A stretch of 64,000 nucleotides of DNA, taken from assembly GCA_018105865.1 (NCBI GenBank), contig CM030832.1, positions 25,347,001 to 25,411,000 on the forward strand, given 5' to 3'. The stretch comes from Metaphire vulgaris (lineage: Eukaryota > Annelida > Clitellata > Crassiclitellata > Megascolecidae). The translations under genes and the position numbers were made by a program. Position 1 is the first letter of the stretch, and every line of letters starts with the position of its first letter. The notes beneath the pieces are model-generated. The model was not told the DNA's origin. It worked only from the letters and a program-made list of their open reading frames with translations, and searched no databases. Below, one piece after another: positions 21,055-57,554 of the stretch.

Positions 21055-21255
21055 ATTTTGCGTCGAAGGGAGCTGAAAAATTCAATTCCAATTTATCGGC
21101 GTATAAACCTTATGGACGTTTCATATGAGAGCATAATTAAAGAGCATCTTCATTCGCCTTTACACTGCGTTGTACCCGCCTACAGGGCGAATTTTTACTT
21201 TGTTACCTTGAAAAATTACACCAAATCTTTATCAGAAAGCATTGGATGTTGTAGA
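21055..21255 (+). pseudogene. Mab-21/cGLR family remnant (C-terminal region)
   Basis: The translation reads RRRELKNSIPIYRR and then VVPAYRANFYFVTLKNYTKSLSES. This matches the C-terminal extension of the intact copies (ILRRKQFKNSIPIYRR and SAYRANFYFTAMQSYNESL at 25506-27440). Only about 65 residues survive, with no NTase or Mab-21 core, and homology is lost after about 21255. It is the only member on the plus strand. Confidence 0.8.
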
Positions 21256-21549
21256 TTGTTCGAAAATGTGAATTTTGAACTAACATCAAACTAGCTATCC
21301 AACGGAAAACGCACCACATTTACTGATGCTGATTTCTAATAGTTTGTCGCCAATATTGCCTATCCGCCGTCGATGCTTCCATGTTTGGACCGACCATACA
21401 TGTTTCAGTTGGTTGATAACATTTTATTTAGTCTACAGTTGTTATATTCTATGCAGATCCTATGAATTAATATACAGTGTATAATATACACAAACTGTGG
21501 TTATTCTCTTTTCGAATTCAATTCAATTTATTGCTTATAACGAATTATT

Positions 21550-21860
21550 ATTGTTGTTATTATTATCCAGGAAGATTTATATAGCGCTGTAACATAGTTA
21601 AAAGCCAAAATCAAAAGCGCTTTGACAGCGCTGACATGTCAATGAAGGTCGGAAGGCAGCGATGTCGAAAATCTACTCTGATGAAAGAAAGAACTCGATG
21701 CCGTGACGAAATCCGGTGCCGAGTCCTTAGGAAGCCGTCCTTCACAAGAAAACTGCAACATTGATACGTCAGCGAGGAACGGAAGATGATGATAGAGGTC
21801 CGCGAATTGTGAACGCATAAACGCATAAACGAGTACACTCTTAAGCGAAGTACCACATCA
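21550..21860 (-). repeat. LINE-like 3' end repeat (related copy 35355-35900)
   Basis: TTATTATTATTATCC followed by ATAGCGCTGTAACA...CAAAAGCGCTTTGACA matches 35355-35430. Homology continues through AACGGAAGATG blocks. Read on the minus strand, a GCGCTATA-type 3' region with an (AAT)n tail resembles the 3' ends of CR1-like LINEs seen elsewhere in the window. Confidence 0.55.
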
Positions 21861-22585
21861 TATAATAGGGAATTAGTTAAAGTACAAAATCAAACATCAT
21901 GTAAAAAGATTACAGCCACACTTCTTAACTAAATCTGAAACAAACAACAGAAAAAAGAACGAAAAAGAACATGCTTTCATGACATCATTGGGCAATGTAA
22001 CATGTTAAGAATAAGTAGGTACATAAAAATAAAATTTAGAAAAAAGGTGGGAAACAAATGGATATCAAAAGGGAGCAGAGTTCCCGCCAGTAGATAACCT
22101 AGTTGGCAACAGTTATAAAGCTCTTGCTGAATCATTTGAATGTGTTCATATTTCCATTTTGATTTCTGTTTAAGATACAAAATCTAAGTAATTAAAAGTT
22201 TTTATATTACCGCATGATAACACTAACGGTGATTAAAGTTCAAACAGTTAGGCCTACGACCAACTCAACGCCTTATTCTCTGTCACATCTATATTAAGTC
22301 AGAAAGGCGGAGTCATTTGTTGAAAGCAACGACGTGATTTTCTATCAGTCTATTTAACTTACAAACGCCAAACGCTTGGTGTCGCCCATTGTGATGTTGA
22401 AATCTGATGCGGCCCCCACCACCGCACTCCTAGCGACGCCACTCCAGTTACGGAAACATATTTAAATGAGAGCAAAATTTTCGACAGTAATTGAGGTCAT
22501 GTGACCCAACACTGACTGAGAAGGGAAAACGAAAGTAGATCAATTATTAGATCAATTAGGCTAGGCTCGATGTCGCCCGTTCAGC

Positions 22586-22586
<1 letters not shown>
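21861..22586. repeat. Interspersed repeat; 22250-22560 recurs at 40246-40780 and 30755-30850
   Basis: The block CAACTCAA-GCCTTAT-CTCTGTCA...GGCGGAG, then ACGCCAAACG-TTGG, CACCGCACT, AATTGAGGTCATGTGACCCA and CCCGTTCAGC, is shared in order with 40246-40780. A shorter part lies at 30755-30850. No coding potential. Confidence 0.7.
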
Positions 22587-22642
<56 letters not shown>

Positions 22643-22818
22643 GACCGACAGACAGACATACAGAGACAGACAGACAGAGAAACAGGCAGGCAAAGAGAGA
22701 GAGACGGACAAAGATAGATATAGAGACAGAGAAACACGGAGGAAGGCAATCAAAGAGGGAGAGATACAGAAAGAGAGAAGATATGGAGAGAGAAAGACAG
22801 AAAGAGAGAGACAGAGAG

Positions 22819-22886
<68 letters not shown>

Positions 22887-22890
22887 ATGA
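22587..22890 (+). repeat. (GA)n/(GACA)n low-complexity tract
   Basis: About 300 bp of GAGA and GACA repeats. It sits at the end of the same repeat block as the GA tract at 40781-40950, so the tract is an inherited part of that repeat. Arg/Glu-rich and Ser/Leu-rich open frames are artefacts. Confidence 0.93.
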
Positions 22891-23013
22891 GAGGAGTAGA
22901 GTTATAGGCCTATAAGAGTAGATATAGAGTCTTATCCAGTCTGTTATTGCAAACATTAATGCTAGTGGCCATTGCGTTGCATAGAAAGCTCACTAAATGT
23001 GCTTAGGCGACCA

Positions 23014-23330
23014 TTAAACTTCCTTCAAGGGTTCTGGCGTTGTCTTTCGTGTTGTACTAGCGATGCGACCGTTAGACATTGGTAAGGACTTAGAACAGCG
23101 TTTTATACGCGCTGAGAGGAGATAAATCAGCACGATCTTCTTCCTCAGTCTGTTGTCCTCCATCCTGCAGACGTGCCCGAAGAAGTTCATTATTCTCCAT
23201 ATCAATGTTTGCATGATGTCAATTTTGGCCTTGATTCTTTCTCTTGTCTTTGTGTTCTTTATTTTCTGCTGCCATTTGATGTTTAAAATTATTCTATAAC
23301 ATTTCATTTCAAAGACCAATAGGCTTTCTT
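23014..23330 (-). mobile_element. RTE-like LINE fragment
   Basis: Minus-strand translation contains LLVFEMKCYRIILNIKW, then RERIKAKIDIMQTLIWRIMNFFGHVCRMEDNRL, the C-terminal end of RTE-like endonuclease-reverse transcriptases. A (TA)-rich tract at 23365-23460 adjoins it. 23461-23844 is non-coding. Confidence 0.75.
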
Positions 23331-23844
23331 GTACACAAGCATAAATACATAAACATGCTTGTGCATATATATATACACGCATATTTATGCATAAACATAT
23401 ATATATATACGTATATATAGATAAGAGTATATTATAAGAATATATATATATATATATATGAGTCAGTGTCACTTTGTAAATCGATGTTGCATAGCACAGT
23501 ATTGGACAATGTAATCAATGAGTCTGCTTTCTCCTATCGTTGACTGCCTTTTCATTTGAAGAAAATTGACAATCGCCCCACAGACGCTGGAAAACTCTCG
23601 GCCAATTTACAAATGAGCATGCAGTGGCGCTAGAGATGGTCTATTTCCTCATCAACTGTACAGTATTTAATTGAGCAAATGATGTTATTTGAGCACACGA
23701 GTGATGTCATAGTATTCTGGAGTCTTCGTCATAGCTTGAGCTAGAGACCTTTGCATATGTCTTCCCATTCTATTACTAAACTGAAGCGCCGCAATGTTTG
23801 GCTAGTAACTGCAATATCGTGGAATTTGAATGTGAGGTACTTGC

Positions 23845-25062
23845 TCTTTATAGATACTACCTTAACGTAATGTCGCCAAGAGAATAGCTGCACTGAAAAC
23901 ATCATTTCTCACCAGTTGAGACATGCATGGCACCTCGAAATCCGAATTTGAGTAGGGGGACCAAACAACCCGTACAGGTTTGACAGACAACTTGTGCCCA
24001 CATTGAATGCGGAGGTAGGCTATTTTAGAAATTCATAACAATTCTATTGCGTCCAATTTTAAGCACACATCGTGAACAGTTGAAGAGCTCGGCGATTCGC
24101 AGTAAGAGATATTTCTGTGCAAAGTAACGAATCCTAATATTACCTGCAAATGTTCATCGTATATCTTTGATAAACTGATGCAAACCAAAACTGGTATGGG
24201 ACTGTTGTAGCATTGAGGAATGTCTTTCACTCTGTTTAATCTATCAAGATATTCGTCACACAGAGTCAAAGATTCTTTGTAAGACTGCATGGTAGTAACG
24301 TGACATTTTGGATCGTAAAGTGACACAAGGACATCCAAGCATCTTTCACACTCGACCAACGATTCTTTGTAAGATTGCATTGTTACAAAGTAAAAATTAA
24401 CTCGGTAAGCTGATGCAGCGAAAAATAACGATGACGGATAAGATTCTCTAATAACATAGTCAATGACATCATCCACAGAGCTCTTTCCAAGGCTACGACG
24501 ATAGATTGGAATTGAATTTCTAGTTTGTTTGCGAAACAACATCGAATTTACAATTTCGTAATATGATAGCTCAAGATTTCCGTAATTGAATTATTACGAA
24601 GTCTTCGTTTCTGAACAAAGCGTATTTAAAGCTCTCAAGACACTCGACGGAATCTTTGTATTCTTTTCTTAAAGCAACATTGTCGACTGACATCAAACGA
24701 AGATGTGCTTCAATTGCTGAGTGAAGATATTTTCATTCCTGGTAAAAACCATTCACATTCAGACAAGTATTCGCCAAACGTCCGTTTAGATGCTCATTGA
24801 TAGGAAATGACATCTGGGTTATATGAAGGCATTCATTTTTGAAGGTCCCTAAGAATTAAAATCCACGCGACATTGTATAAGACTAGAAGCACAGACGAGC
24901 TTTCTACCAGCCACGAATTTCAGCAGCGCCTGCAATTTCATCTCGAAACTGCCTTTATCTTTCAAATGACTCACTATATTGCATTTTGGAATGAAGTAAT
25001 TAGGGTAGAATTTCTCATTAAGACAATTATGAAACCGAAGAAGCAATGTTTGTACACAGCAT
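23845..25062 (-). pseudogene. Mab-21/cGLR family copy, N-terminal half lost
   Basis: The remnant has two readable parts. 24849-25046 matches the end of the Mab-21 domain (LLRFHNCLNEKFYPNYF, then HLKDKG). 24033-24542 covers the C-terminal extension (RNSIPIYRR, SAYRVNFYFVTMQSYKESL, IYDEHLQVILGFVTLHRNIS). The segment between is homologous but frameshifted, and 23845-24030 matches the 3' coding end. The TPR-like line MQSYKESL occurs twice in this copy, a small internal duplication not seen in the intact genes. The N-terminal half, including the whole catalytic centre, ends abruptly at 25062, where half of the fold-back repeat begins. Confidence 0.88.
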
Positions 25063-25430
25063 TCTTATTTTGTTCCAATTACATTCCCCTACAACTTTGC
25101 TGTTCACCGAAGTTAGGTTGCCGCTCAAAAATTTTAGCAGCACAGCTTGGAACAGAACAAAATATTTTTGGAGGGGTTCTGTTTCAGGCCAGATTGTGTA
25201 CCCTTATCCCAAATTTTATTAAATTTTGCACGGATGGTTTAAAAGAGGGGATAAGATTGCAAAACATTGGTGTATACTTCATCGTTATAGCTTTCACAGA
25301 ATCCGAGAAATTGCAAGTTGAAAAAGTTCAAAACTACTTGCAAATACACAGAACGCTGCATTTCTTCGGCCCCCTAATGTAAGGCACCTTTTTCAGTTGA
25401 CCGTCCATTAATCATTTAGTTGTCTATGAC
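25063..25430 (+). repeat. Half fold-back element
   Basis: Matches one arm of the fold-back at 16180-16498 and 17157-17190 (AATTACATTCCCCTACAACT, TTCAGGCCAGATTGTG, GCACGGATGGTTT, ATGTAAGGCACCTTTTTCAG). It contains no LINE insertion, so it shows the arm before those insertions. It abuts the truncated gene copy. Confidence 0.88.
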
Positions 25431-25505
25431 TAGACAGACAGAATCGCTGACTTTCGAGATAAATGAATAGCATGATGGAGGAATTAGATGGTCAATGAAG
25501 AATCC

Positions 25506-27440
25506 TTAATGTGGCCATTTATAAATCCTGCTTTGACGTATTTGACGTACAGCCGCAAAGAGAATAGTGCTGCTGTAAAAATCAATCCTAATCAATTGAG
25601 ACATGCATGGCCTGAGGGAATCACAATATGTGAAAGTGCCAGAGACAATTTGTTCACCCAGCATGAGTTCGCATCGGATGCGTAGGTATTTCAGAAATTC
25701 CTCGACGTCCAATTTTAAACATACTTCGAGAGCAGTTGAAGAATTTGACGACTCGGAGGACGAGATATTTCTGTGTAAAGTAGCAAATCCCAAAATTACT
25801 TGTAAATGTTCGTCATACATTTGTGACAAACTGTTGCAAATCAAAACAGGAATGTATGAATCAAGTTTGCTAACATCGTTAAGATCGTCATTTACCGTTT
25901 GCAACTTAGTTTTGGAAAAGACATCCAAGCATCTGTTACACTCAGTCAAAGATTCGTTGTAAGACTGCATGGCTGTAAAGTAAAAATTTGCACGATAGGC
26001 TGACACAGCGCAAAACAGTATTGGCGGACGCCTTTCTTCAACCATCTTTTCAAGGATCTTAAAACACATCCCATGGTCTCGACGATAGATTGGAATTGAA
26101 TTTTTAAATTGCTTGCGTCTCAAAATTGCATTAAAATTTTCGTTATTAGACATATTTCGATTCGTGTATCTGAATGATGCAAAGTCTTCGTTTCCTGTCA
26201 AAGCGCATTTGAATTTTTCAAGACACTCTACATAATCTTTGCTTTCTTTTCTTGAAGCGACATTGTCGAGGGACATCAAACGTAGATTTGCTTCAATTGC
26301 TGAATGAAGATCTTTCATTCCAGGTAAAAACCATTCACATTCAGACAAATATTGAGACAATAGTCCATTTAGGCCTTCATTGATCGGAGGTGACGCCGCC
26401 ATTTTAAAGCAACACAAACGTTCGAAAGACGCCGCCAAACTCCAAGGTTCACGATCTGAATATCGAATAGCTTCGTCAAAAAGAAAGCTGATAACTCCAC
26501 TTGCAAGTACAGCCCGCAACTTTTTCAATTCGTCTGAAAACATTCCTTCATCTTTCAAATGACTCATTATATTGCATTCAGGAATGACATAATTAGGACA
26601 GAATTTCTTCTCAAGACATCCAAGAAACCGAAAAAACATTGTTTTTACACAGGGGATTATGTTTTGTTTACCCCAAAATTCTGGAGGAAATTCTTCGCAT
26701 GCCCACAACATAAGCGTCTTGAAATAATAGGTTTGAAATCCTTTGTTTCCATCGCTACCAAAATCCTTTGCTATAAATTTTATGATGCATCGAATTAGGT
26801 AGTAGACGAGTTTCTGAACGTTCGTCCAACTGTGAATCAATAGAAGTTCCGCTTTTGAGAATGAGAATCTCCATTCTGTGTCGTCACAAGAGCTCCATGT
26901 ACGAAGTTTCGAAACAAAATGACAACCGCCTCTTGTTATCCTGGCGATCAATTTCTCATTCGGCCATCCGTGAAATCTTTTGCGCTTTCTCCATTCTTCG
27001 GCTTCAACAGGCCAATAAGGACAGTAAACTGCCAACACTAGGTCTGTTTTTATATCAATAACTGGTCTATATTGCTCCATAATTGCATTGGTATATTTTT
27101 CCACGAGTTTAATTGATGGACCACCATTTTCTACTATTTTGTTTAATATAGATGGTCGGCGGTAAAATGCCGATTTTTCACGTTCTCCGTGTATCTTCAG
27201 CCTAGCATATCCTGATGGGGTTTCCGTGCTGTCTATTCTGAGTATTGTGCATTTGGCGTTTTTCGGAGGATTTCTATTCCAAGGAATTGCACAAATATCA
27301 TAAAAGTAGCACAGGGCGTCCCTATCTGAGTACTCAGCAAAGGCATATTTAATTGGAAGTTCATCTGTGCTTCCACATTCCAGAGCGTAAAAAGGCGTTA
27401 GTCTATTGAACGTTCTCGAGCGAAACTTTGAATATTCCAT
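25506..27440 (-). CDS. Mab-21/cGAS-like nucleotidyltransferase family protein, 644 aa
   Basis: Seen: an uninterrupted 644-residue frame. An N-terminal nucleotidyltransferase pattern has Gly23-Ser24, Asp39-x-Asp41 and a third acidic residue, Asp133, seven residues before CPYWP. The Mab-21 helical half follows, with WPNEKLIARITRGGCHFVSK (about 159-178), EWRFSFSKAELLLIHSW and FKTLMLWACEEF. Residues from about 330 on are a helical extension with a TPR-like line (SAYRANFYFTAMQSYNESL) and QMYDEHLQVILGFATLHRNI. Known: Mab-21 proteins with this acidic triad include cGAS and cGAS-like receptors, which make cyclic dinucleotide signals on sensing foreign nucleic acid, upstream of STING. Inferred: a cytosolic innate-immune sensor candidate; ligand and product cannot be told. 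Only 22 residues precede the Gly-Ser, shorter than the usual N-terminal spine helix, so an upstream exon is possible. The start is the one shared by all full-length copies. No cGAS-type zinc-thumb cluster is apparent. Confidence 0.9.
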   Translation of the reverse strand: MEYSKFRSRTFNRLTPFYALECGSTDELPIKYAFAEYSDRDALCYFYDICAIPWNRNPPKNAKCTILRIDSTETPSGYARLKIHGEREKSAFYRRPSILNKIVENGGPSIKLVEKYTNAIMEQYRPVIDIKTDLVLAVYCPYWPVEAEEWRKRKRFHGWPNEKLIARITRGGCHFVSKLRTWSSCDDTEWRFSFSKAELLLIHSWTNVQKLVYYLIRCIIKFIAKDFGSDGNKGFQTYYFKTLMLWACEEFPPEFWGKQNIIPCVKTMFFRFLGCLEKKFCPNYVIPECNIMSHLKDEGMFSDELKKLRAVLASGVISFLFDEAIRYSDREPWSLAASFERLCCFKMAASPPINEGLNGLLSQYLSECEWFLPGMKDLHSAIEANLRLMSLDNVASRKESKDYVECLEKFKCALTGNEDFASFRYTNRNMSNNENFNAILRRKQFKNSIPIYRRDHGMCFKILEKMVEERRPPILFCAVSAYRANFYFTAMQSYNESLTECNRCLDVFSKTKLQTVNDDLNDVSKLDSYIPVLICNSLSQMYDEHLQVILGFATLHRNISSSESSNSSTALEVCLKLDVEEFLKYLRIRCELMLGEQIVSGTFTYCDSLRPCMSQLIRIDFYSSTILFAAVRQIRQSRIYKWPH

Positions 27441-28390
27441 ACTTCTGCAGCATTGGAGTGTAAGTTCTGAAGGAACATATTTTAATTCCTGGCGTATTTA
27501 TCTCAGTCAGAATTCTTGAATATAAAAGATAATATGCTCAGTCTGTGTTAACATGAATCACATTACTTTAACAGAAAGAGACTTCTATCAGTGGTTGACA
27601 TGATGGATTTGTTGGAATAGAACACAATAGAAAACAACAATTTCCTGTTAATCTATGTAAATTCACAATTGAGTTGCCTTGGAGCACAGACTTTATCATT
27701 GTTGTCGTCGTTTTTAAGATAATCATTTTCAGCATCGCTATTAATTTAGTAATCATAACTACAATATTTAATGAAATCGCGATAAGATTTTAATAGACTA
27801 CAAAATTGCGAGACTTTGAGTTTCCGGATGTTTCACTCTCTTATCTCTCTTTTTTTCTCTTTCCCTCTCAACTCTCTCCTCATCTCTCTTTCTCCTTCTC
27901 TCTCTCTCTCTCTCGCTCTCTCTCTCCCTCTCTCTATCTCTCTAGCTTTTAAGATAGAGCTTATAGTGACTCGCTTTCTCCCTGCTATTATCGCAGCTGG
28001 GATAAACGAAAAATGAAACAATGATTTACAGTAGAACGCCTTTTGCATAATTAAGACATCACTTATTCATTGTGACCGCACAATTACGCAAATGAGTCCA
28101 AAAGTAGAACGACAGCGATCATATCACGTTATATGTTAAACTCTGACTTCTACGAATGGTTAAAAAACCAGCCGGACAATCCTAACGCTGAGAAACAAGA
28201 GACAATATTGCCTAGGGAAATTCTAGCAATACAGGCGCCTCCAAAGTTATCAAAATACAGCACAACATAGATGCATATAGCACAAAATTAATTATAATTG
28301 ATGGCTGGGGAGAATGGGATGTCAAATAACTAGTAAAAGTTCACTAGTGCACACGCTTTCCTATGTTCCTATGCTTTAATCATCCACACA

Positions 28391-28395
<5 letters not shown>
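27441..28395 (-). promoter_or_regulatory. Conserved 5' flank of the 644-aa Mab-21 gene
   Basis: This flank is shared, in order, with the flanks at 46103-46990, 57555-59160 (with an insertion) and the orphan at 32045-33130. Landmarks going away from the start codon: AGAATTCT at 27509-27516, AACAGAAAGAGAC near 27570, CAACAATTTCCTGTTAATC, a CT-rich tract at 27838-27950, GCTTTTAAGATAGAGCTTAT and CACAATTACGCAAATGAGTC. A TATA-like TTTTATAT (minus strand, around 27520-27528) lies about 80 bp before the ATG but is not conserved in the other copies. Promoter function is inferred from conservation, which may only reflect recent duplication. Confidence 0.6.

Positions 28396-28437
<42 letters not shown>
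28394..28437. repeat. (TA)n microsatellite at the duplication edge
   Basis: A pure TA run preceded by CACACACGCA. The homologous block at 57.5-59.2 kb also ends in (CA)n(TA)n, at 59141-59180, suggesting the duplicated segment terminates in this tract. Confidence 0.9.
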
Positions 28438-28439
<2 letters not shown>

Positions 28440-29266
28440 CACAGGGCTCCATACTGGGGCCGATGCTGTTCATCCTTTTCATCAGTAAGATCAAAGAGAT
28501 TATCAGTCGTCATCAAGTTTTTTTCCACCTATATGCAGACGACATGCAATTATACCGCAGTTCCACTCCGGCTAATCTAAACAGCGTCATTCCAGCACTG
28601 GAAAACTGTATCGCCGATATCGATAACTGGCTCAAGCTGAATAAACTTAAACTAAATGCCTCAAAGACAGAATTCACAATATTAGGGCATAGTCGACAAA
28701 TAGCGAAAACTGATGTCGAAAATATTACTCTCAATCTTCGTGGAGCCAGCATCAAAAGCTCAAAGATTGTCAGGGATCTTGGAGTAATCCTCAACGACGG
28801 TCTTACTATGTCCGACCACATCAGCAAAGCAGTCTCAACCAGCTTCTATCAACTACGCCAACTCCGTCCAATTATAGACTCTCTAACTACAGACGTAGCT
28901 CAGACTATTATACATGCATTTATTTCGACACATCTAGACTATTGTAATAGTCTCCTTTACCGAATACCAGAAAATCAAATCAGGAGACTTCAAGCAGTCC
29001 AAAACTCAGCGGCACGCCTCTTAACTAGAACTCCAAGGCGCCAGCATATCACACCTATACTCCAGACACTCCACTGGCTACCAGTTCGAAAACGGATTAT
29101 TTTCAAGATAATCTCGCTCGTAGACAAATGCCTAAGATCTGAAGCTCCAGACTACCTCATAAGGGACTGCAAACTACTAAGTGACATCGGCAGAAATCGA
29201 TCGATCAGCACGAGGTCTCTATGGACGCGAATACTATCAGTTCCTCGCACAAGTAATTTTGCATAG
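28438..29266 (+). mobile_element. CR1-like LINE reverse-transcriptase fragment, open frame
   Basis: Begins directly after the (TA)n tract with codons for PQGSILGPMLF, then FHLYADDMQLY (catalytic YADD box), KLNKLKLNASKTEF, DLGVILND, STHLDYCNSLLY, QNSAARLLTRTPR and HITPILQTLHWLPVRKRI. About 270 residues lack a stop. The upstream RT part, the endonuclease and the last C-terminal part are absent, so it is an inactive fragment that happens to remain open. Confidence 0.85.
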
Positions 29267-30470: not shown

Positions 30471-30478
30471 GAAACTAC

Positions 30479-31485: not shown

Positions 31486-31533
<48 letters not shown>

Positions 31534-32044: not shown

Positions 32045-33130
32045 ATTAAGTACGCATATTTTAGTTCTTAGAGTATTGATTCCAGTCAGAATTCTTCAAT
32101 CAAAAAGATAATGTGCTCAGTCACTGTAAAAAATGAACACGTTAATTTAAAAGAAATAGACCTCTACCAGTGGTTCACATGATGGATAATAGTGGTTCGT
32201 GCAATGCAAACAGGAAATAGCTGAATCACAACGTACTCACTGCCAATAAAGTAAAGTAAAGTAAAATCTCGTGAATTTCTATAGCGCCTTGGAAACAGCA
32301 CAACAGTAGCTGCTTATTCATAGGCGCTCAGCCTTTCTTAAAATAGCTATGGGGAAGGTATATTATCAGCCAGGCAATAGTCAACATCCAAAAGGGCAGT
32401 GAGGCTAGGTTGTTACAGCTATGGAGGAAATGATTTTAGAAAAAGGAAGGATTTAAGCTTAGACCTGAAAATTTGAGAAGATAATGCAGGAATTATAGGA
32501 AATGAGGATTCAGATTTTATTGTTTGAAAGTGTCCAAGTTTGCGGAGGGAAGCTGAGATCGAGTTCCAAAATTCAGGTGAAGCGTATGAGAAGGCATGGT
32601 TGCAAATTTTCAGAGATGACTGATTCAGTGGGCGTGACAGAGTGAGGTAAGATGATGAACGTGTGGGTCGAGGAGGCTGAGGGGTTAATAGTGACCTAAG
32701 GTACACAGGTTTTGATGACTGAAGTGAGCTATGTGTAAGTGTTATTATCTTATATTGGATACGTCCTGTTATTTTAAGCCAATGTAATGATTTTAATATG
32801 GGTGAAATATGGAAGAATTTAGGTGACTTAATAACAGCGCGACCTAGTGCATTTTGTATTGATTGTAATTTGTTGATGGAGGCTTTGGGAAGGTTGGAGT
32901 GGACTATTGAGGTGGCAGTTGTGGAAGCAGTTGATGGAAGCAATTATGAGTTGCTGACAATTTTTTAGATTGAACGCAATAAAAAACAACAGTTTCCTGC
33001 CTATCTATGTAAATTCACTTTGAAATGCCTTGGGGCACAGAATACATAGTCGCTGTTGTCGTTTTCCAGCTAATTATTTTCAATTTTTCATCACCTTTAT
33101 TAATTTAGTCATCGTAACTACAATATTTTT
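32045..33130 (-). promoter_or_regulatory. Orphan copy of the Mab-21 gene 5' flank, no gene attached
   Basis: The sequence follows the flanks of the three full-length Mab-21-family genes. From the gene-proximal side it has TTTTAGTTCTTAGAGTATTG, AGAATTCT (32088-32095), AAAAAGATAATGTGCTCAGT, ATAGACCTCTACCAGTGGTT, CAACAGTTTCCTG, and GAAATGCCTTGGGGCACAGA. Where the start codon and coding sequence should follow (below 32045), no Mab-21 homology is found. A CR1-like LINE fragment interrupts it (32250-32938). The block continues in family at 34740-35082, beyond a composite repeat insertion. Confidence 0.75.
32250..32938 (-). mobile_element. CR1-like LINE 3' fragment
   Basis: Minus-strand translation reads IVHSNLPKASINKLQSIQNA, then HISPILKSLHWLKITGRIQYKI, and a C-terminal AFSYASPEFWNSISASLRKL. 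These are the standard order of CR1-like RT C-terminal motifs. The 3' end carries GGCGCTATAGAAATTC and repeats of ACTTT. Comparison with 46290-46310 indicates insertion at GCCAAT|GATGAGTT, with a short GCAAT/CCAAT duplication. Confidence 0.85.
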
Positions 33131-34065
33131 AACTAGGTGTTTACCCGTCAAAAATGACGGGAAAGATTGGCTGTTTTACCAACCGATTTTTTGCAAATGC
33201 AATAGGATTCTGCGCAATTAATTTCCCTAACTGGCCGCCTTTTCCAGGTTTCCTTCAACCGAGTTAACGCCCATTCGCGTGAATTTTCTGAAACTTGATA
33301 GTCAATGTAAGTGTAATGATTTGGCAGTGTCGAACGACATGCAGTGCTTGATTCTCTTGTTTGCTGTGCTGCTTTTGCACGCCAAGCAACAGCCTGCTCC
33401 TCATTCTCACTTGATTGTCGGAAAACTCGTGAACGCTCGACTTTTTTGTTTTGCATGGAGGGTTAGAAAGAGGAATAAAAAAGCTAAACAATGGTGCAAA
33501 CTTCATCTCCTTATCTCTTACATAGCCTGAGATGTAGCAAATTCAAAAAAATTTGGAAACTTTCTCAGAATTCAAAACTTACGCGAAATTCGCTCATAAT
33601 ACTTATGTTCAAACATTGGGGTCATCGAGTTAGAATTGATAGATCTTTGCCAAATGTCAACCGATTTTCAAACTTTTTGATTTATTTTGTTTCTCTGACA
33701 TCCCTTTACAACTTTGCCGCTGACCAAAGTGGGGTTACCGCTGAAAATATTTTGCTAGGGGGCTTTAAAAAATTGTTGGGAGAAGAGGGTGATATTTTAG
33801 GCCGTAAAGTGGACTCTACCCCCAATTTTTTTGTTTTGCACGGACGGTTAGAAAGAGGAATAAACAATCTCAACAATGGTGCAAATTTTATCTTTTAGCT
33901 CCTATATAGCCTGAGATATAGCAAATTTAAAACGTTACATCAATCATTTCTGAAGAACGCTTTTCCAAAAATTAAAAATCCCCAGTACGGTGACGGCGTC
34001 TGAAAATTTAATCCCAACTTGAGGGGTAAAATTTAAAAAAATAGGTATTGAGGCTAGGAAGGAAG

Positions 34066-34109
<44 letters not shown>

Positions 34110-34690
34110 CAGGGGACAGGGCATTGAAAGAGGAAGGAGGTTTGGGAGGAGGAAAGTGGGTTGTACGGGTTTTTTCGGAGCAGCGTTGTGTAAGTTTGGA
34201 AACGGGGGCTTGGGAGATTGGGGAAAGGATGGGGAGAGGGAAGAGGGATGGGGAAAGGGAAGGGGAACGGGGGTTTGGGGCCGAGGCAGGGGAATGGGTT
34301 GGGGCCAGGGCGATTGGGAGAGGGATGAGGAGAGGGAAAAGGGATGGGGAGGGAAGGGGAACGGGGTGGTTTGGGGCCGGGGTCCCGGAATGGGTTGGGC
34401 CAGGGCGATTGGGAGGGATGGGGAGAGGGAAGGAGATGGGGATAGGGAAGGGAAAAGGGGGTTTGGGGCCGTGGCGGGAATGGGTTGGGCCTGGGCGATT
34501 AGGAGAGGGATGGGGTGAGAAAAGGGGGACGGAGGTTTAAGCTGCAATTAAGACGCTTCGTTAAACGCTCCGGTTTGATTAAACAATATTTGGTTGTCAA
34601 TGACAACAGCGTCTTGCAATACCCGCCGTGTTGCGGACGGACGGACGCGACGGACGGACATCGAGAATTATATAATAAGATGAAATCGAA
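33131..34690 (+). repeat. Composite interspersed element, copy 2
   Basis: Matches 6187-8240 over nearly its whole length with a few indels. It begins at AGGTGTTTACCCGTCAAAAA and includes GCACGGACGGTTAGAAAGAG and the closing CAATTAAGACGCTTCGTTAAACG. It is inserted in the orphan Mab-21 flank right after the TACAATATTT that in other copies runs on. A (TA)n tract lies at 34069-34108. Confidence 0.75.
34110..34540 (+). repeat. G-rich minisatellite, diverged copy of 7500-8090
   Basis: Repeating GGGAGAGGGATGGGG and GGTTTGGGGCCG units, shorter than the first copy. The flanks are homologous, so the two arrays are descendants that expanded or shrank separately. Confidence 0.8.
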
Positions 34691-34805: not shown

Positions 34806-34838
<33 letters not shown>

Positions 34839-35082
34839 ATATCTGTCTGGCTCTCTCTCTCTTTCTTCCTCTCTCTAGCTTTTCAGATAGAGTTTATACT
34901 GGCTGACATTCTTCCTGCTAATATCGCAGCTGGTATAAAGGAAAAACTGAACAATCATTTACAGTAGAACGCCGTTTGCATAATTAACAACCAATTAGGC
35001 CTAGAGTTTATGTCTTAATTATGCAAACGCCGTTAATAATTACGAACGCACAATTATGCGAATGAGTCCAAAAGTAGAGCGA
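34740..35082 (-). repeat. Outer part of the Mab-21 5' flank block
   Basis: CTCTCTCTAGCTTTTCAGATAGAG, CTTCCTGCTAATATCGCAGCTG and GTAGAACGCCGTTTGCATAATTA match 27930-28050 and 58700-58850. It contains a (TGTC)n run at 34812-34845. It belongs to the orphan block begun at 32045, pushed away by the composite repeat. Confidence 0.75.
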
Positions 35083-35090
35083 CAGCAATG

Positions 35091-44131: not shown

Positions 44132-46102
44132 TCAATCTTCCAACCGAAGCGGCGAAATGTCTGGCACTTGACTGCAATATAGGGGAATTAGAGTTCGAGG
44201 TATGTGCTCTACAGAGACCCTGCCTTGACGTAATGCCGCAAAGAGAATGGCTGCACTGAAAACATTACTTGGCATCAGTTGAGACATGTACGGCACCTCG
44301 AGATAAGATTTTGAGGAAACGGAATAAACAACCGCCACAGGTTTTACACGCAACTTGTGCCCACATTGAACGCGGAGATATTTCAGAAATTCTTTGGCGT
44401 CCAATTTAAAACACACTTCTTGGGCAGTTGAAATATTGGACGAATCGGAGGAAGAGATATTTCTGTGCAACGTAATAAATCCTAAAATTACCTGCAAATG
44501 TTCATCGTATATCTGTGATAAACTGTTGCAAATCAAAACTGGTATGTACGAGGAATAGTATCTCTGAACGTTATTTACTTTGATCATGATATCAAGACAT
44601 TCGTCACACTCAGTCATAGACTCTTTGTAAGACTGCATGGCTGTAAAGTGAAAATTTGCTCGGTAAGCTGATACAACGCAGAGTAGAGATGACGGAAGAG
44701 ATTGTTTTAAAATCTGGTCATCAGCATCATCCTCAAAACTCTTTCGAATTCTTCGACAGTAGACTGGAATCGAATCTCTTGTTTGTTTGCGGATCAAAAT
44801 TACACTCATAAGTTCGTAAAATGACAGTTCAGGATTTCCGTATCTAACTGATTCAAAGTCTTCGTTTCCGATCATAGCGCATTTAAAACTTTCAAGACAC
44901 TCAACGTAAATTTTGCTGTATTTTCGTGAAGCAATATTGCTGATTGACAACAAACGAAGATGAGCTTCAATTGCGGAATGAAGATTTTTCATTCCCGGTA
45001 AAAACCATTCACAATCAGATAAATAATGGCTAAATCGTCCATTCAGATTTTCATTGATCGGAAATGACTCGCTGGCCGATTGAAGACACAGATACTCGAA
45101 AGACCCTAGCGAGTTAAATGTAGGTGTCTCTACTGGAACACGAACGGTATTTATAACGGTCAAGAAATTCATCAACGCTTGCAATTCTGTCCGGTAACCA
45201 CCTTCATCTTTCAAATGACTCATTATATTACATTCTGGAATGAAATAACTTGGGCAGAATTGCTCATTGAGACGTTTGTAAAACCGAAGTAGAAATGTTT
45301 GTACACAGCTCATCGTGTCTTGTTCACTCCAAAATTCTGGAGAAAATTCTTCGCAAGCCCACAACATGAGCGTTTTGAAAAAGTAGGTTTGAATTCCTTT
45401 GTTTCCATCGCCACCATAATTCTCTGAAATTCTTTTCTTAAAGGTTCGAATGACATGATATACGAGTTTCTGATCTGGCGTCCAACTGTGAATCAGTATA
45501 AGTTCAGCTTTTGAGAATGAGAATCTCCATTCTGTGTCGTCAGAAGAGCTCCACGTACGAAGTTTAGAAACAAAATGACAACCGCCTCTTGTTATCCTGG
45601 CGATCAATTTCTCATTCGGCCATCCATTAAATCTCTTGCGCTTTCTCCATTCTTCGGCTTCAACTGGCCAATAGGGACAGTAAATTGAGAAAACTCTGTC
45701 TTTGCTTACATCACCAAGGTTTGATTTGTATCGTGCCCGAGCTCCATCGATATATTTGAACACCTTTTTTATAGAAGGGCCACCACTTTCTATGTTGGCT
45801 AACATGCGTGGTCTGCGGTAGTATGATGAGTTTCCTCCTTTTCCATATCCCTGTATCTTCAGTCTAGCATATCCTGGAGGTGTTTCCGTGCTGTCTATTC
45901 TCAGTATCGTGCACTTGGTGTTTTTCGGAGAATTTCTGTTCCAAGGAATTGCACAAATATCATAGCAGTAGTATAGGGTGTCCAAATCTGAGGTTGTATA
46001 TGAGGAATATTTAATTGGAAGTTCAGAATTACTTCCGCATTCGAGATTGTAATAAGGCTCTTGCACAGTGAAACTCCTCAAACGAAACTTCGAATAATCC
46101 AT
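44132..46102 (-). CDS. Mab-21/cGAS-like nucleotidyltransferase family protein, 656 aa
   Basis: Seen: an uninterrupted 656-residue frame collinear with the 644-aa paralogue at 25506-27440. The catalytic pattern is kept: Gly23-Ser24, Asp39-x-Asp41 and Asp135 before CPYWP. The Mab-21 half includes WPNEKLIARITRGGCHFVSK, EWRFSFSKAELILIHSW and FKTLMLWACEEF. The middle (about residues 305-345) is the most diverged part, and the C-terminus is longer than in the paralogue, ending SPLRLED. The extension keeps SAYRANFHFTAMQSYKESM and QIYDEHLQVILGFITLHRNIS. Known: this acidic triad is required for cyclic dinucleotide synthesis in cGAS-like receptors. Inferred: probably an active enzyme and a receptor variant with its own ligand preference. 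Loss of synthesis with a structural Mab-21 role remains possible. The start codon is shared with the other copies. It is preceded by the conserved flank, here with AGAATTCT only about 35-42 bp upstream. Confidence 0.9.
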   Translation of the reverse strand: MDYSKFRLRSFTVQEPYYNLECGSNSELPIKYSSYTTSDLDTLYYCYDICAIPWNRNSPKNTKCTILRIDSTETPPGYARLKIQGYGKGGNSSYYRRPRMLANIESGGPSIKKVFKYIDGARARYKSNLGDVSKDRVFSIYCPYWPVEAEEWRKRKRFNGWPNEKLIARITRGGCHFVSKLRTWSSSDDTEWRFSFSKAELILIHSWTPDQKLVYHVIRTFKKRISENYGGDGNKGIQTYFFKTLMLWACEEFSPEFWSEQDTMSCVQTFLLRFYKRLNEQFCPSYFIPECNIMSHLKDEGGYRTELQALMNFLTVINTVRVPVETPTFNSLGSFEYLCLQSASESFPINENLNGRFSHYLSDCEWFLPGMKNLHSAIEAHLRLLSISNIASRKYSKIYVECLESFKCAMIGNEDFESVRYGNPELSFYELMSVILIRKQTRDSIPVYCRRIRKSFEDDADDQILKQSLPSSLLCVVSAYRANFHFTAMQSYKESMTECDECLDIMIKVNNVQRYYSSYIPVLICNSLSQIYDEHLQVILGFITLHRNISSSDSSNISTAQEVCFKLDAKEFLKYLRVQCGHKLRVKPVAVVYSVSSKSYLEVPYMSQLMPSNVFSAAILFAALRQGRVSVEHIPRTLIPLYCSQVPDISPLRLED

Positions 46103-47269: not shown

Positions 47270-47489
47270 CCGGAGATATTCGAAAGACGCATACGAAATT
47301 GGCACGACCTATACATGTGTGGCCGGCAGCTTTGTTAACTTCCAGCAGCCCTTGCAATTCTTTCTCGTAACCATCTTCGTCTTTCAAATGACTCATTATA
47401 TTGCATTCTTGGATGAAATAAATATGACAGAATTCCTCATCTAGACATCTGTGAAACAGAAGCAGCAATGTCTGTACACAGACATTGCA
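47270..47489 (-). pseudogene. Mab-21/cGLR family remnant
   Basis: The minus-strand frame reads LLLFHRCLDEEFCHIYFIQECNIMSHLKDE and then KELQGLLEV, matching residues around 268-310 of the intact copies. Homology ends at about 47485 on the N-terminal side, just after TGTACACAG, and fades at 47270 on the other. About 70 residues survive and there is no catalytic part. Confidence 0.82.
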
Positions 47490-48739: not shown

Positions 48740-51445
48740 AAAATGTTATCGTGTACAGTAGTTCAGCCATGGATAAGGCTCTTAACTGTGGTATTCTAAA
48801 AGGAAGGCCATTTGGTGGTACTGCAATATTTGTAAACACTATCTGGGCATCTGCCACTAAATTGTGTTGTCATCATATCGCTTTATAATTTTGAATATTG
48901 ACAGAACCTTGTTAATTAATGTGTACATGCCTTGCAGCGACTCTGATGAATATATTGAATGTTTATCAATGATAGCAAACTGTATGGATGATACAGACTT
49001 CGACTCTGTTATCTTATGTGGGGATCTCAATATAGAATTCAACGCTAAATATAAATTGTGGGATGTTTTCTTAAAGTTTATGATGGATAATAAGTTGGTA
49101 CATACTGACAGTTTCCTGCCTGTAGGGATGAGTTATTCTTTTCGTAATAATTCGTTGTCTGCTTGTTCCCTAATTGATCATTTCGTTGTTAGTGAGAATT
49201 TGTATAAGAATGTTGTCTCTCTTAATATAGTAGATTCTGGGATTAATTTGTCTGATCATATTCCGGTCTCTCTTGAAATTGAATTGAAAATTTCTAATTC
49301 CAAAGTAGTTAACAAGGAAGAGAAGCACTCAAAAAAGCAGTCAAGTGGGAGGTTTTATAAACTTAGATGGGACAAGGTTGATCTTAGATACTACTATGAA
49401 CACACAAGGGTATCTTTTGAACCTATCAAAAACTATCAGAAGATTATATCAAACATGGAGTCTGTAATGACTCTGTGGTTGAATATGTATACAATAGCAT
49501 TGTTAATTCCTTACAGGCTGCAGACATGATAGTCCCCAGGGTTCCTGTTAATTTCTATAAATTCTGGTGGGATGCACAGCTTGATGAGTTGAAATCCAAG
49601 TCCATTGAAACTTTCAAGCTGTGGGAAGCTTCTGGCAAACCAAGGTTTGGGAGATCTTTAAGAAAATGCAGCAAGCCAAGGGGCTATACAAACACAATTA
49701 AACAAAAAGAAAGAGACAACAAAAATTTCTTTAGTGATGAACTTAATGAAGCTCTCATGCAAAAGAACATGCATGAATTTTGGAAAGCATGGAATAGCAA
49801 ATTCAAGGCCAAGGGAGTGAAAAGAAGCAGTCAGAGTGTTGATGGTTGTAGTACCGAGAGTGAAATTGCTAATGTCTTTGTTAAGTTTTTTGAATCTGCA
49901 TGTACCCCAAATAACATACAGAAGCATTTAGATGAAAAATTTAAATTTGAGCAAGAGTACAATGTATATATGCAAAAAAGTACAAATCGTCCACTCATCT
50001 CAGTAGAAGAAGTGGATTCAGCACTTGGTAAATTGAAGAGGGGTAAAGCCTCTGGATATGATAACCTGACAGTTGAGTATATCATGTTCGCTCATCCAGT
50101 GGTCATATTATGCATAACCAACCTGTTTAACTTGATGCTGCAAATTGGATATGTGCCCAATGGCTTCGGTAGAGGAATCATAATTCCTCTATTGAAGGGC
50201 TGTGGTACAGATTCAACTAGTTGTGAAAATTACCGTGGAGTAACGTTAAGTCCAGTTATCTCTAAGGTGTTTGAACACTGCCTTCTGTCCATGGTTGGAT
50301 CACATCTGAATAGCTCGGACCTGCAATTTGGATTCAAATCAGGAGTAGGCTGCTCAGATGCTATATATACCCTTAGGGGTGTGTTAAATTATTTAAACAG
50401 AAATCAGTCCACAGCCGTGATTACTGCTCTTGATATTTCAAAGGCATTCGATAAAGTATGTTACTTTGGTTTGTTTAGAAAATTAATGCAGAGAGGCACC
50501 CCCTGTTACTTCATTGATGTTCTAATAGATTGGTATGAAAAATGTTATGCTAATATTCGATGGGGTGATGTCATATCAGGTTCTTTCAAGGTCTTAGCTG
50601 GGGTAAGACAAGGTGGTGTCCTTTCCCCATTATTATTTGCTGTATATGTGGATGATCTTGTCTCCAATTTAAAAAAATCTGGCTATGGTTGTTACATCAA
50701 TACTTTGTTCATGGGTTGTTTACTTTATGCTGATGATATATTGCTTATTTCTCATTCTGTTCATGGTATGCAATGTTTACTTGATGTATGTAGTGTTGAA
50801 ACTGCTAATCTAGATTTGAAGTTTAATGTAAAAAAATGTAAGGTCATGAGAATTGGTAGACGTTATGCAATGGTCTGTGCTCCCTTATTATTGAATGGAT
50901 CTGTTCTGGCTTATGTTGATGAGTTGAAATATCTTGGGATCGTAGTTAGAGCTGGTCGTCATTTCAGGATATCAATTACAGAGACCAAAATGAAATTTTA
51001 TAAAAATTTTAATAACTTGTACAGCAAGAGCAAATCCTCTTCCTCTGAGTTGATATGTGTTGACTTACTCAAATCGTTTTGTTTACCTATTAATTATCTT
51101 ATATGCTACTGAAGCTACTTGTCCGAACAAGAGCACTTTAAATAACTTGGATCACCTAGTACAGCAGGCTGTATGCAAAATCTTCGATGTACATAACAAA
51201 GTAATGATTGACTGTATTCGCGAAATGCTTGGATTGCATTTAATACATGATACTGTAAAGAATCGTCAATACTCCTTTACATCTCGGTTTTTCAAGAAGA
51301 ATCTGTATTTCAGCAAATGTATAATAGCGGAATGTGTTGTGTAGTTGTTAGCTACGAGTTGTGTTTGTGTTTCTTTTTTGTCTTTTTTGTCTTTTTTTAT
51401 GTTGTCTGCATTTGCGAATAAAGTTATATATTATAATTATGAAAA
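48740..51445 (+). mobile_element. CR1/Jockey-like LINE with endonuclease and reverse transcriptase
   Basis: This is the longest retroelement in the window. An endonuclease domain (start truncated) begins near 48760 with GRPFGGTAIF, changes frame near 48860, and continues in 48864-49529 with CGDLNIEF, ACSLIDHFVVS and NLSDHIPVSLE. After another frameshift near 49490-49530, 49475-51112 encodes the reverse transcriptase: LGKLKRGKASGYDNL, NYRGVTLSPVISKVFE, QFGFKSGVGCSDAI, ALDISKAFDKV, GVRQGGVLSPLLFAVYVDDL, LLYADDILLISHS, FNVKKCKVM and LKYLGI. A third shift near 51100 leads to the last 95 residues (to 51344). AATAAA occurs at 51418. Three frame changes make it inactive, but the RT domain itself is intact. 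Confidence 0.92.
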
Positions 51446-51529
51446 TTTCATTTCAGCATTCAAAGAAATTCAGAAATTCATGCTGTCACCTTAACTTCTG
51501 TACATGAAGGAACAAGGAGAAGATGATGA

Positions 51530-52793: not shown

Positions 52794-54041
52794 AAAGTTA
52801 CATTCCGTGGTATGCAACGCCTTAAATAATATCTCCGTAAGAAACGAATTAGGTTTATATTATATATAGAATGGTTATTATATATATATAGTTCATTATT
52901 TCATTATTCTGTCGCTACTTAGATAGGGCCCGTCGTTTCAGTTTATTACATGATGCGTTTGTTGGATTACAAGTGGGCAGATATTTATAAGTTGTTGCTA
53001 ATATGCTGTTATTAAACCTTCCTGTTCAGCATTAACGGCATCAACAGCTCTCCAATTTTCATAGAGCTTAGTGTCTCAAATCCGGTCACTTTTTCAGTTC
53101 ACATATTCATTAAATCCGAACCTGGTTTGTTTACATGTTCTCTCCCAGTTGTTTAAACGTCCGATTGCAAAGTATTCACGTCTTGTATACAAACATAAAC
53201 CGTCTAAATCAAAAGACTGCAACTGTAGGCCTACTCATACTAAACACAATCCACTGCATTACAGTCTCCCTTATACTCATTAATGCACTCGTGCGCCTAA
53301 AGTTCGATCGTCAATATTATTCCAGTGAAATATTTATTAGAGAAATTGCAAACCAGAAGATGACTCTTTCGTTACAAACTATTTGATCACAAGATCCTGG
53401 AATCCTCCCAAACTAAGCAGTGTGCCAAAGTCGACGATTCATCCTTTAAATCTACAGTGCAATCTTAAGAAGTCTGTTTAGTTTGAATTAAAGCCATGAA
53501 ATTTCTCCCCTCCCCTCGTACATAGCCTTATGCTCTGTGAGAATGACAGATCGAGAAAACCAACAGAAATCAAAATGGAAATATCAACATTCTGAAATGT
53601 CCATTATAATTTATGCTTTTGCTAAATCATGGGTGCACAGATATTTTCATTTTGTCAAAGTGTAACAAACGAATAGTATCGCTTCCTTACCTATCCATCC
53701 AATTAAAGAAATAAAATAAAATACGCCTGGACTCTGGATGCTACATTAGAATTTACTAAATCAGAGATGAATCTGTATTATAAACATCGACTTCAGAAGA
53801 CTAGTTATGAGAATCCGTACGGTGTGTTCGTCTACAGTCTTGTTAGCAAAATTCTGCACTAGACTTCACGTTTCAGCCATTAATAGGCCTGCACCTTCAA
53901 GCAGCGGTTAAAATACTTGGATTTATACACCATACCGTGGATGATTACAGCCTAATAGCCTCTTACAATCATTTCAAACAGCTAGTCTTTGTGTCGCTGT
54001 TCTCAAGCTTTACATTTATCTGATTAAACTAGTACGTAGTC
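52794..54041. other. No gene recognised
   Basis: AT-rich sequence with a short (TA)n stretch near 52858-52890. Short open frames at 53071-53386 have no features. Confidence 0.6.
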
Positions 54042-54095
<54 letters not shown>

Positions 54096-54097
54096 CA
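54042..54097 (+). repeat. (ATT)n microsatellite, left half
   Basis: About 18 ATT units immediately before the CAGGGCGCGATTTGTA end of the element at 54098. Confidence 0.93.
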
Positions 54098-55446
54098 GGG
54101 CGCGATTTGTAGGAGAAGGGAGGATTCCCCTCTCCCACTGCCCAAGTGCATCCCCCCACTGAGGGGGCTACTGACATACTAGCCAGGGAAGTCAATATCC
54201 CCCCACTGTGACTGTGACAAGAAAATGCATTCACCGTCAGCAGAGGTAGAAAAATTTTTCCGCGCTTCGCGCCGAGGCTGAGTAAAACAATGAAATGTGT
54301 TGTTCGGTGGTAACTGGGGACAGATTTACCTTAATCTTTCAAAAAATTTACCCATGTTGCTGATTAAACCATTTACGAGCGTAGACCTATACTTCATCAT
54401 GGCCAGACAATAAAATTGACAGATCATTATTTGGTGACAGAGCAATAGTTTATCTAGTAGAACTGTGCAAAGTAGACCCGTCACTAGCCTTGGACAGTGT
54501 TTAATCTAGACTCTTGACTCCGGGAGAGGGGAAATGACAAGGCCGGGAGGAAGTCAGCTAGGGGCTGCTGTTAGTTACTGTAGTATGCCAAAATTTCCGG
54601 GGAGAATTTGAAATTTCTAGGGGAAGGGCAAATCCCCCCCGGAAACGGCCTAAATTAAACCCCTGGCCTTGGATCAGTTCCGACAGTACAAGAAGAACAA
54701 TGTGGAAGTAATCGATAATGTGCTAGTTTCAGCACTCAAAACAGTGTTAGAACACAACCAATGATAACACAAATCAACTGAACAAAACTCAATACAAATA
54801 AACTAATATTAAATTAATAATCTAATAAACTAATAAACTAAGCACAAACTTTAAGCACAAACTTTACACAGTACAGCTTCTGCCCTCAGACAAGTTCTAG
54901 TAATGCACTCAGCAAAGTACAGCGACTTCTTCTCATATTTATTAACAAAGGATGCTTGTCGCCTTTTTACAACAACATGCAAACTTTCCAAACCCGTCAA
55001 AGTTCAATGATACACTAGTTAGAAATCAACTCGGTATTCATACACTTTCATCTCTTGGGTATGCGATGGGCAACATGCTGCCTCAGATGCACCAACTGAC
55101 AAAAAAACTGACAAGACATCTGTGTCAATTCCTGCCATGGCAACTCTGTATTAGTTCTCAATTATACTTGCTTCAATTTAGTTGCAGATTTTCAATTACT
55201 GCAACTTGCAGTTGCACTATTGCATTTATGGTCTAAATAAATGGTGTGTGACAATTTATAAAAATAATATTAAAAGTTAGAGCAAAGTAGACCTACTGTG
55301 CATTAAACCATGCATTTCCCATGTCCCCCACTGCTAGTCATTTTCTTCCACTGCTCATCATGTTCCCTCCACTGCTTGTCATTTGCCCCCACTGCTCGCC
55401 ATGTTCTCCTAATGTTCCCCACTACTCCGGGTTACAAATCGCACCC
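54098..55446. mobile_element. hAT-like non-autonomous element inside an ATT microsatellite
   Basis: CAGGGCGCGATTTGTA at 54098-54113 and TACAAATCGCACCCT near 55433-55447 form an imperfect inverted repeat. Both ends abut (ATT)n, so the element probably entered one microsatellite and the duplicated target is hidden in it. Subterminal regions are rich in CCCCACTG words (for example 54135-54220 and 55325-55415). The open frame at 54952-55236 has no recognisable domain. Confidence 0.8.

Positions 55447-55504
<58 letters not shown>
55447..55504 (+). repeat. (TTA)n microsatellite, right half
   Basis: About 19 TTA units, in phase with the left tract at 54042-54097. Confidence 0.93.
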
Positions 55505-55505
<1 letters not shown>

Positions 55506-55633
55506 GTATAGTTCTAACAATAATCTTTTCCATTCCATTATTGGACTAGCCAGAAGGAATCGCTGACATTCGGGATAAGTGAATAGCATGATGGGGAATT
55601 AGATGGTCAATAAAGTGTCCTAAATAGGGCCAT

Positions 55634-57554
55634 TTATAAAATCCTGATTTGACGAACTTGATCTAATGCCGCAAGGAGAACAGCGTTGCTGTAGAGATCA
55701 TTCCTACTCAATTGAGACCTCCTTGGATAGAGGTAATCACAATTTGTGAAATTGACAGAGACAATTGATCCAGGCAGCATGAGTTCGCATCGGATGCAGA
55801 TGTATATCAGAAATTCCTTGGCGTCCAATTTTAAACATACTTCGAGAGCAGTCGAAAAATTCGACGACTCGGAGGACGAGATATTTCTATGTAAAGTAGC
55901 AAATCCCAAAATTACTTGTAAATTTTTGTCATATATTTGTGACAAACTGTTGCAAATCAAAACAGGAATGTACGAATCAAATTCGAAGTCAAGATCGTCA
56001 TTTTCTGTTAGCAGCTTAGATTTGAAAAAGAAATCCAAGCACATGTTACACATAGTCAAAGATTGTTGGTAAGACTGCATGGCTGTAAAGTGAAAATTGG
56101 CACTATATACATATTCAGCGCAAAGCAGTTTGACGGAAGAAATTCTTTGTTCAGCTTTAAAAATAAATCAAAACACAGCGTACGGTATCGACGATAGACT
56201 GGAATTGAATGTTTTAATTGTTTGCGATGCAAAATTGCATTAAAATTTTCGTAAATGGACCTATTTGGATCTGCGTATATGAATGATACAAAGTCTTCGT
56301 TTCCTATCGAAGCGCATTTAAATTTTTCAAGACACTCTACATAATCTTTGCTTCCTTTTCTTGAAGTGACATTGTCGATTGACATCAGACGAAGATTTGC
56401 TTCAATTGCTGCATGAAGATCTTTCATTCCAGGTAAAAACCATTCACATTCAGAAAAATATTGAGAAAATAGTCCATTTAGACCTTCGTTGATCGCAGGT
56501 GACGCCGCCATTGTACGAAAACATAGACATTCGAAAGACCCCGGCCAAATCACAGGTTCACGATCTTCACAACGATTAAAATCGTCAAAAGCAAGGCTGA
56601 TATATCCCTTTGCAAGGAGAAGCTGCAGAATTTTCAATTCGTCTTGAAACCATTCTTCATCTTTCAAATGACACATTATATTACATTCTGGAATGAAATA
56701 ACTGGGACAGAATTTCTCCTCAAGACATCCAAGAAACCGAAGAAACACTGTTTCTACACAGCAGAGTATGTTTTGTTCACTCCAGAATTCTGGTGAGAAT
56801 TCTTCGCAAGCCCAGAACATAAGTGTTTTGAAATAATAGGTTTGAAGTCCCTTGTTCCCATCGCCACCAAAACAATTTGTTAGGAATTTCGTCATAAATC
56901 GAATATAACTATACGCTAGTTTCTGATCTGGTGTCCAACTGTGAATCAATAGAACTTCCGCTTTTGAGAATGAGAATCTCCATTCTGTGTCGTCACAAGG
57001 AGTTATCCATGTACGAAGTTTAGAAACAAAATGACAACCGCCTCTTGTTATCCTGGCGATGAATTTCTCATTCGGCCATCCGTTAAATCTTTTGCGCGTT
57101 TTCCATTCTTCGGCTTCAACAGGCCAATAAGGACAGTAAATTGCAAACACTTTGTCTACACTGACATCAGAACGACCTGGTTTACATCGTTCCTTAATTT
57201 CATGGGTAAGGTTGTCCACGACGAATTTTATTGACGGGCCACCACTTTCTACGTTGGCTAAGATAGGTGGTCGGCGGTAAAATGCCGCTTTTTCATGTTC
57301 TCCGTCTATCTTCAGTCTAGCATATCCTGATGGTGATTTCGTGCTGTCTGTTCTGAGTATTGTGCATCTGGTATTTTTCGGAGGATTTCTGTTCCAAGGA
57401 ATTGCACAAATATCATAATAGTAGCAAAGGAAATCAATATCTGAGATTTCATGTGAGAAATATTTAATTGGAAGTTCATAATGACTTCCGCAGGGCACAA
57501 CGTAAAAGGCTCTAGTCTAGTGAAAGACCTCAAACGAAACTTTGAATAATCCAT
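55634..57554 (-). pseudogene. Mab-21/cGAS-like family copy with two frameshifts
   Basis: Closest to the 644-aa gene. It starts with the same MDYSKFRLRSFTRLEP at 57554 and shifts frame near 57495. From there the long frame down to 56056 holds Gly-Ser (CGSHYELPIKY), Asp-x-Asp (SDIDFL), the third Asp before CPYWP, GGCHFVSK, FSFSKAEVLLIHSW and FWACEEF. A second shift near 56100-56130 moves into 55634-56080, which holds MQSYQQSL and QIYDKNLQVILGFATLHRNIS. Catalytic residues are therefore still encoded but not in one frame. Few other differences suggest recent loss. A sequencing error at either site is an alternative. Confidence 0.9.

Follow-up and report, generated by a model that had tools for sequence, protein, structure and literature searches.

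What are the Mab-21-like genes that lie clustered in a 64,000-nucleotide stretch of the Metaphire vulgaris genome (C1:25347001-25411000 of a 728 Mb assembly; this whole stretch is hereafter the window), and what could their proteins do? An earlier note, written from the sequence letters, had described at least six loci of cGAS-like receptor (cGLR) type, among them intact, frameshifted and truncated copies, and had seen in them a fast-evolving family of pathogen sensors. Our analysis suggests that the window belongs to a cluster, several megabases long, of cGAS-like receptor genes expanded in this lineage, and that its two intact genes, copies A and B, encode ligand-triggered cGAS-like sensor enzymes, a joint reading that we consider rather likely on the sequence comparisons described below.

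Domain identity and structural relatives

Copies A and B, as well as a broken third copy, C, match the Pfam families Mab-21 and Mab-21_C, both above the curated cut-offs (PF03281 Mab-21 scores 34.4-43.0 bits in these three copies, against a cut-off of 24.1), and the two domains are matched in all 77 members of alignment A1, which joins 28 copies from the genome with 49 of 65 outside homologues. The assignment to the Mab-21/cGAS superfamily in the earlier note is thereby borne out, the lack of a significant Mab-21 match that would have refuted it having failed to occur, and the three window copies carry the Pfam Mab-21 domain by which, together with membership of the clade, the cGLR superfamily has been defined (PMC10732462). 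The Pfam match to the nucleotidyltransferase (NTase) takes in only the C-terminal portion of the profile, starting at positions 114-122 and ending at 196 of 197. Pfam and most PDB matches span the latter half of the NTase core along with the helical lobe, and the N-terminal part of the core is recognised by profile alignment only.

Among known structures, the family profile matched cGAS-like receptor 1 (8gjy, 2.8e-36) and MB21D2 (7lt1, 9e-28), followed by 8gjw (a second cGAS-like receptor 1 chain), Mab21L1 (5eog) and cGAS; with protein A alone, 8gjy and MB21D2 again lead and cGAS comes next. MB21D2, which has been termed an orphan cGLR (PMC9980059), is thus the second-best structure match, over profile positions 122-355, but the window proteins run about 300 residues past the matched stretch.

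Active-site residues

Residue numbers refer here to copy B, in its stop-to-stop frame of 670 aa. Of the 66 loci scored with protein B, 30 were fetched; the 28 of these with an open frame of 630 aa or more are the near-intact paralogues, and the other two, L017 and L036, fall short of that length and were excluded. Li et al. (2023) describe cGLRs by a GS motif and three acidic metal-site residues, and GS together with the acids D53, D55 and D149 is conserved in all 28. The acidic triad is present in 71 of the 77 rows of A1, and GS or GG plus the triad in 70. Since A1 omitted 16 homologues (13 for which the precomputed list shows Mab-21_C alone, and P0049, P0050 and P0052, which carry both domains), these triad counts describe the more complete proteins.

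In a profile-profile alignment, the N-terminal 330 residues match, at 97.6% probability, five Mab-21 proteins of the ankyrin type from this genome, of which two were checked against Pfam: GS37-38 falls on their GS, D53 and D55 on E-x-D, and D149 on the third D. Against the Mab21L1-like L001 and L003 (99.1%), the first two acid positions are D and E, and the third is Gln in L001. Because these profile alignments place GS and the acids in register, the family possesses the residues that metal-dependent nucleotide transfer calls for. As for the incomplete acidic triad that marks Mab21L1/2 according to a legend of Li et al., the third acid is present in the window family; the text of that paper calls the putative active site of Mab21L1/2 complete, the opposite of its legend (PMC9980059).

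Scale of the expansion

The assembly was searched with Mab-21, Mab-21_C and protein B, scoring respectively the best 150 of 442, 150 of 336 and 66 of 538 first-look candidates, which gave at least 150, 150 and 71 match rows; matches on one strand within 2 kb were merged into loci. Among the matches listed there are at least 297 merged Mab-21 loci, so that the family is far larger than six loci. A mitochondrial COX1 gene was not found in the assembly, which gave one partial match to it. At least 50 of them lie at 22.39-26.16 Mb on C1, the window's own contig, at least 55 on C21 and at least 34 on C18, again among the matches listed. Contigs C1-C41 hold 227 of the 297, and 70 are on shorter contigs that may include alternative haplotypes. 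Copy C and the window remnants are missing from the 297, so the true number of loci is likely higher; in the opposite direction, genes with long introns may have entered the count twice, and the loci include broken ones and a few of Mab21L1-like type. Of the 66 main alignments from the search with protein B, 49 are free of internal stops and 17 contain one. The 28 near-intact paralogues have open frames of 640-724 aa, and share a start sequence close to MDYSKFRLRSFT.

Radiations of cGLRs have been reported for bivalves and corals, with more than 200 members in some bivalves (PMC9980059). The large expansion described here is real and of a kind already published; it is the C-terminal extension that merits a structure.

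The short contigs C120, C111 and C132 bear near-copies of loci on C1 and C8. Synonymous divergence (dS) is 0.065 between A and L028, 0.07 between B and L010 and 0.012 between L025 and L029, and the order of A and B on C1 is unlike that on C120; these contigs may be alternative haplotypes or paralogous blocks.

A second architecture in the genome consists of long ankyrin-Mab-21 open reading frames (ORFs), at L042:2358-7001(-) and L044:3-4544(+). Like the window genes, they are long single open frames in clusters and belong to the common superfamily. Unlike them, they begin with an N-terminal ankyrin array (about 1000 residues or more), carry Mab-21 near the C-terminus with canonical GSS and E-F-D active-site residues, and continue for no more than about 180-200 residues beyond the Mab-21 match. 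On C42 and C18 there are many open frames of like kind, 1200-2400 aa long, which are candidates for this architecture.

The C-terminal extension

Each intact gene ends in an extension of about 330 residues without a recognised domain. The earlier note had called it TPR-like, a label that is a guess and that our comparisons do not confirm. In the Pfam scan of the 77 A1 members, TPR_8, TPR_7 and TPR_DENND3 appear in one member each, at E-values of 0.012-0.24, and the best non-Mab-21 match (0.0093, in one member) is to an unrelated DUF. The extension profile scored 18.0 against a designed TPR consensus, with a maximum of 12.5 in 30 column-shuffled controls, at a probability of only 1.6%. A search for the extension in other protein contexts, run with residues 340-650 and open only to proteins of similar whole length, gave a single protein, P0001, itself a Mab-21 protein, a result that carries little weight given that limit.

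The suggestion that this architecture was undescribed is only partly right, as fusions of cGLRs to TPR and ankyrin modules are in print, even if 87% of cGLRs have no added domain (PMC9980059). The particular array is absent from the titles and abstract openings found in a literature search, which is no evidence that the array is undescribed. L007 (C29:1635162-1638440), a more distant Mab-21 paralogue of 673 aa with GS and D-V-D, has an extension of comparable size.

Evolution and selection

A tree of the 28 paralogues and the 49 outside homologues, which also contains L007 and a Mab21L1-like sequence, joins the paralogues in a single clade (support 0.99), followed by P0001 and P0002. A 26-row analysis groups B with L010 and L011, and A with three copies on C23; A and B thus belong to different subclades, and the window mixes lineages.

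The median pairwise ratio of nonsynonymous to synonymous rates (dN/dS) among the 28 near-intact copies is 0.42; by region, the medians are 0.38 for the NTase, 0.29 for the helical lobe, 0.57 for the linker and 0.43 for the extension. A counting method was applied to 26 of these copies (L028 and L029 were removed as near-duplicates of L032 and L025; gene conversion lies outside the model) and gave 0.54 overall and 0.82 for residues 316-380, with synonymous exceeding nonsynonymous change (S>N) at p<0.1 in 177 sites of 647 columns. Residues about 115-154 and 315-354 in the copy B reading frame form variable segments. The fast evolution proposed for the family is not supported by these ratios beyond a moderately relaxed purifying selection. 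Copy C, compared with A in its three blocks (36, 452 and 163 codons), has dN/dS values of 0.32, 0.77 and 1.09, in keeping with decay of copy C.

STING genes

A search of the same genome for STING, which the earlier note had proposed, found STING_LBD exons at two loci, on C8 and C14 (9 candidates, 9 scored, 3 matches). At the C8 locus, L039:1435-3223(-), a TIR_2 exon above the cut-off lies upstream of the STING_LBD exons on the same strand, so that L039 is a probable TIR-STING gene, of a type known from the Pacific oyster (PMC10732462). At the C14 locus, L040, the upstream exon piece that was tested gave no TIR match.

Proposed function and its alternatives

The window proteins would be cytosolic sensors, inactive until a ligand binds, be it nucleic acid or another microbial feature. 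The ligand-bound protein would then make a cyclic dinucleotide, to be read by the few STING proteins of the genome, one of them resembling TIR-STING, and the extension might serve in ligand recognition or partner docking. We infer an immune role for the family. A more specific proposal, which we offer tentatively and regard as somewhat doubtful, is that of a lineage-specific cGLR subfamily in which the uniform C-terminal extension, and not a nucleic-acid surface, would act as the sensor. The clustered receptors, hundreds in number and each with variable stretches, would feed a few STING proteins including TIR-STING, ligand diversity residing in gene number and the signal being shared.

The window family shares with the cGLRs of Li et al., including 8gjy, the Mab-21 NTase with its helical lobe, the GS, the acidic triad and a large radiation, but differs from them in its extension without a recognised domain and in its active-site details (PMC9980059). 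The latter are among several points that weigh against a sensor enzyme. The strict cGLR motif, h[QT]GS X8-20 [DE]h[DE]h X50-90 h[DE]h, is matched by none of the 77 rows; the residue before GS is Cys in 28 of 28 where the motif wants Gln or Thr, the spacing from second to third acid is 91-97 residues in 24 of 28 against the published 50-90, and in some copies a non-hydrophobic residue stands between the first acid and the second (Arg in copy A, Glu in four others). Two STING loci stand against hundreds of Mab-21 loci. Positive selection on the copies was not confirmed: the 14 sites with N>S at p<0.1 in the 647 columns of the 26 copies are no excess over chance. Finally, the shrimp proteins LvMab21-1/2/3, invertebrate Mab-21 proteins likened to ours by description, are reported to signal without making cGAMP and to bind neither dsDNA nor dsRNA (PMC12928593). 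Because the strict published motif is not matched, we do not term the window proteins confirmed cGLR enzymes; they are members of the Mab-21/cGLR superfamily that probably work like cGLRs.

The shrimp proteins have an antiviral role and act on IKK-epsilon (PMC12928593), and they provide a precedent for catalytically silent scaffold receptors that keep the fold and signal through protein contacts, for example by activating a TBK1/IKK-epsilon-like kinase. The unmatched strict motif with its Cys before GS points the same way, as does the limitations section of Li et al., by which many recombinant cGLRs are seemingly inactive in vitro (PMC9980059). We nevertheless find such scaffolds unlikely, since three acids and GS kept in 28 of 28 copies, while other stretches vary widely, are difficult to account for unless the proteins are catalytic or bind nucleotides. 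The copies could also be mostly neutral duplicates, spread with repeats and segmental duplication and left to drift, most of them with little function; retrotransposon ORFs between the copies, the broken copy C and the three remnants beside it in the window, the stops in the main alignments (17 of 66) and the ratios of 0.77 and 1.09 in the two long blocks of copy C would all agree with this. The median dN/dS of the near-intact copies, their common start sequence and their open frames of 640-724 aa are at odds with it, and we judge it improbable. A developmental or other non-immune role, as for Mab21L1/2, could be argued from the same Pfam families and the PDB match to Mab21L1, but appears very improbable: the genome has separate Mab21L1-like genes (L001 and L002) with much stronger Mab-21 scores, the third acid kept in the window family is absent in L001, and hundreds of variable copies are ill-suited to a patterning gene. 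If the proteins are indeed active sensor enzymes, such a repertoire, in which cGAS-like sensors by the hundred converge on a few STING proteins, would lend itself well to studying the diversification of innate receptors by gene birth and death, and also what an added C-terminal region detects.

Gene copies, remnants and flanks in the window

The features of the window are collected in the table. The two intact intronless genes have exactly the lengths that had been claimed, all full-length copies are on the minus strand as described, and the frameshifted copy, the three remnants and the orphan flank were all recovered; copy C reaches 57611, so its 5' end is just outside the interval of the earlier note. 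The remnants were located by tblastn with the window's own proteins, and their best E-values, 1e-103 for D (linked pieces), 5e-15 for E and 2e-13 for F, exclude chance matches.

Compared with the upstream flank of copy A, the orphan flank is 81% alike over 34818-34987 and 89% alike over 35044-35089; compared with that of copy C, it is 71% alike over 34851-35089. An additional piece of the shared flank lies at 33020-33128 (75%), and the segment between copy C and its flank has no counterpart beside copy A. Gene copies duplicate together with their flanks and decay by frameshift and truncation, in agreement with the local birth and decay that had been proposed.

Features of the window (positions are those of the whole stretch)
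Feature	Position	Strand	Description
Remnant F	21034..21303	+	C-terminal extension fragment (tblastn)
Remnant D	23772 (approx.)..25058	-	C-terminal two thirds, more than one frame; stop in two of three blocks
Copy A	25506..27440	-	Intact single-exon gene, 644 aa: Mab-21 NTase, Mab-21_C lobe, C-terminal extension; locus L032
Copy A upstream flank	27668..28437		80% like copy C flank
Orphan flank piece	34818..35089		No gene copy adjoining
Copy B	44132..46102	-	Intact single-exon gene, 656 aa, architecture as copy A; locus L009
Remnant E	47295..47480	-	Mab-21_C region fragment (tblastn)
Copy C	55640..57611	-	Sister of A, broken: three frame blocks, each 67-71% aa identity to A
Copy C upstream flank	58472..59192		Parted from gene by 57785-58471
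Retrotransposon ORFs	28337-29266, 49421-51112, 48861-49529	+ (all)	Between gene copies

Two of the retrotransposon ORFs are of reverse-transcriptase type and one is endonuclease-like, with a match just under the cut-off. No Pfam family matches the 358-aa open frame at 8972-10048(+) at E<=1. The stretch at 6695-8239, which is GC-rich and of low complexity and has proline-rich frames, is duplicated at 33263-34681 with about 77% identity.

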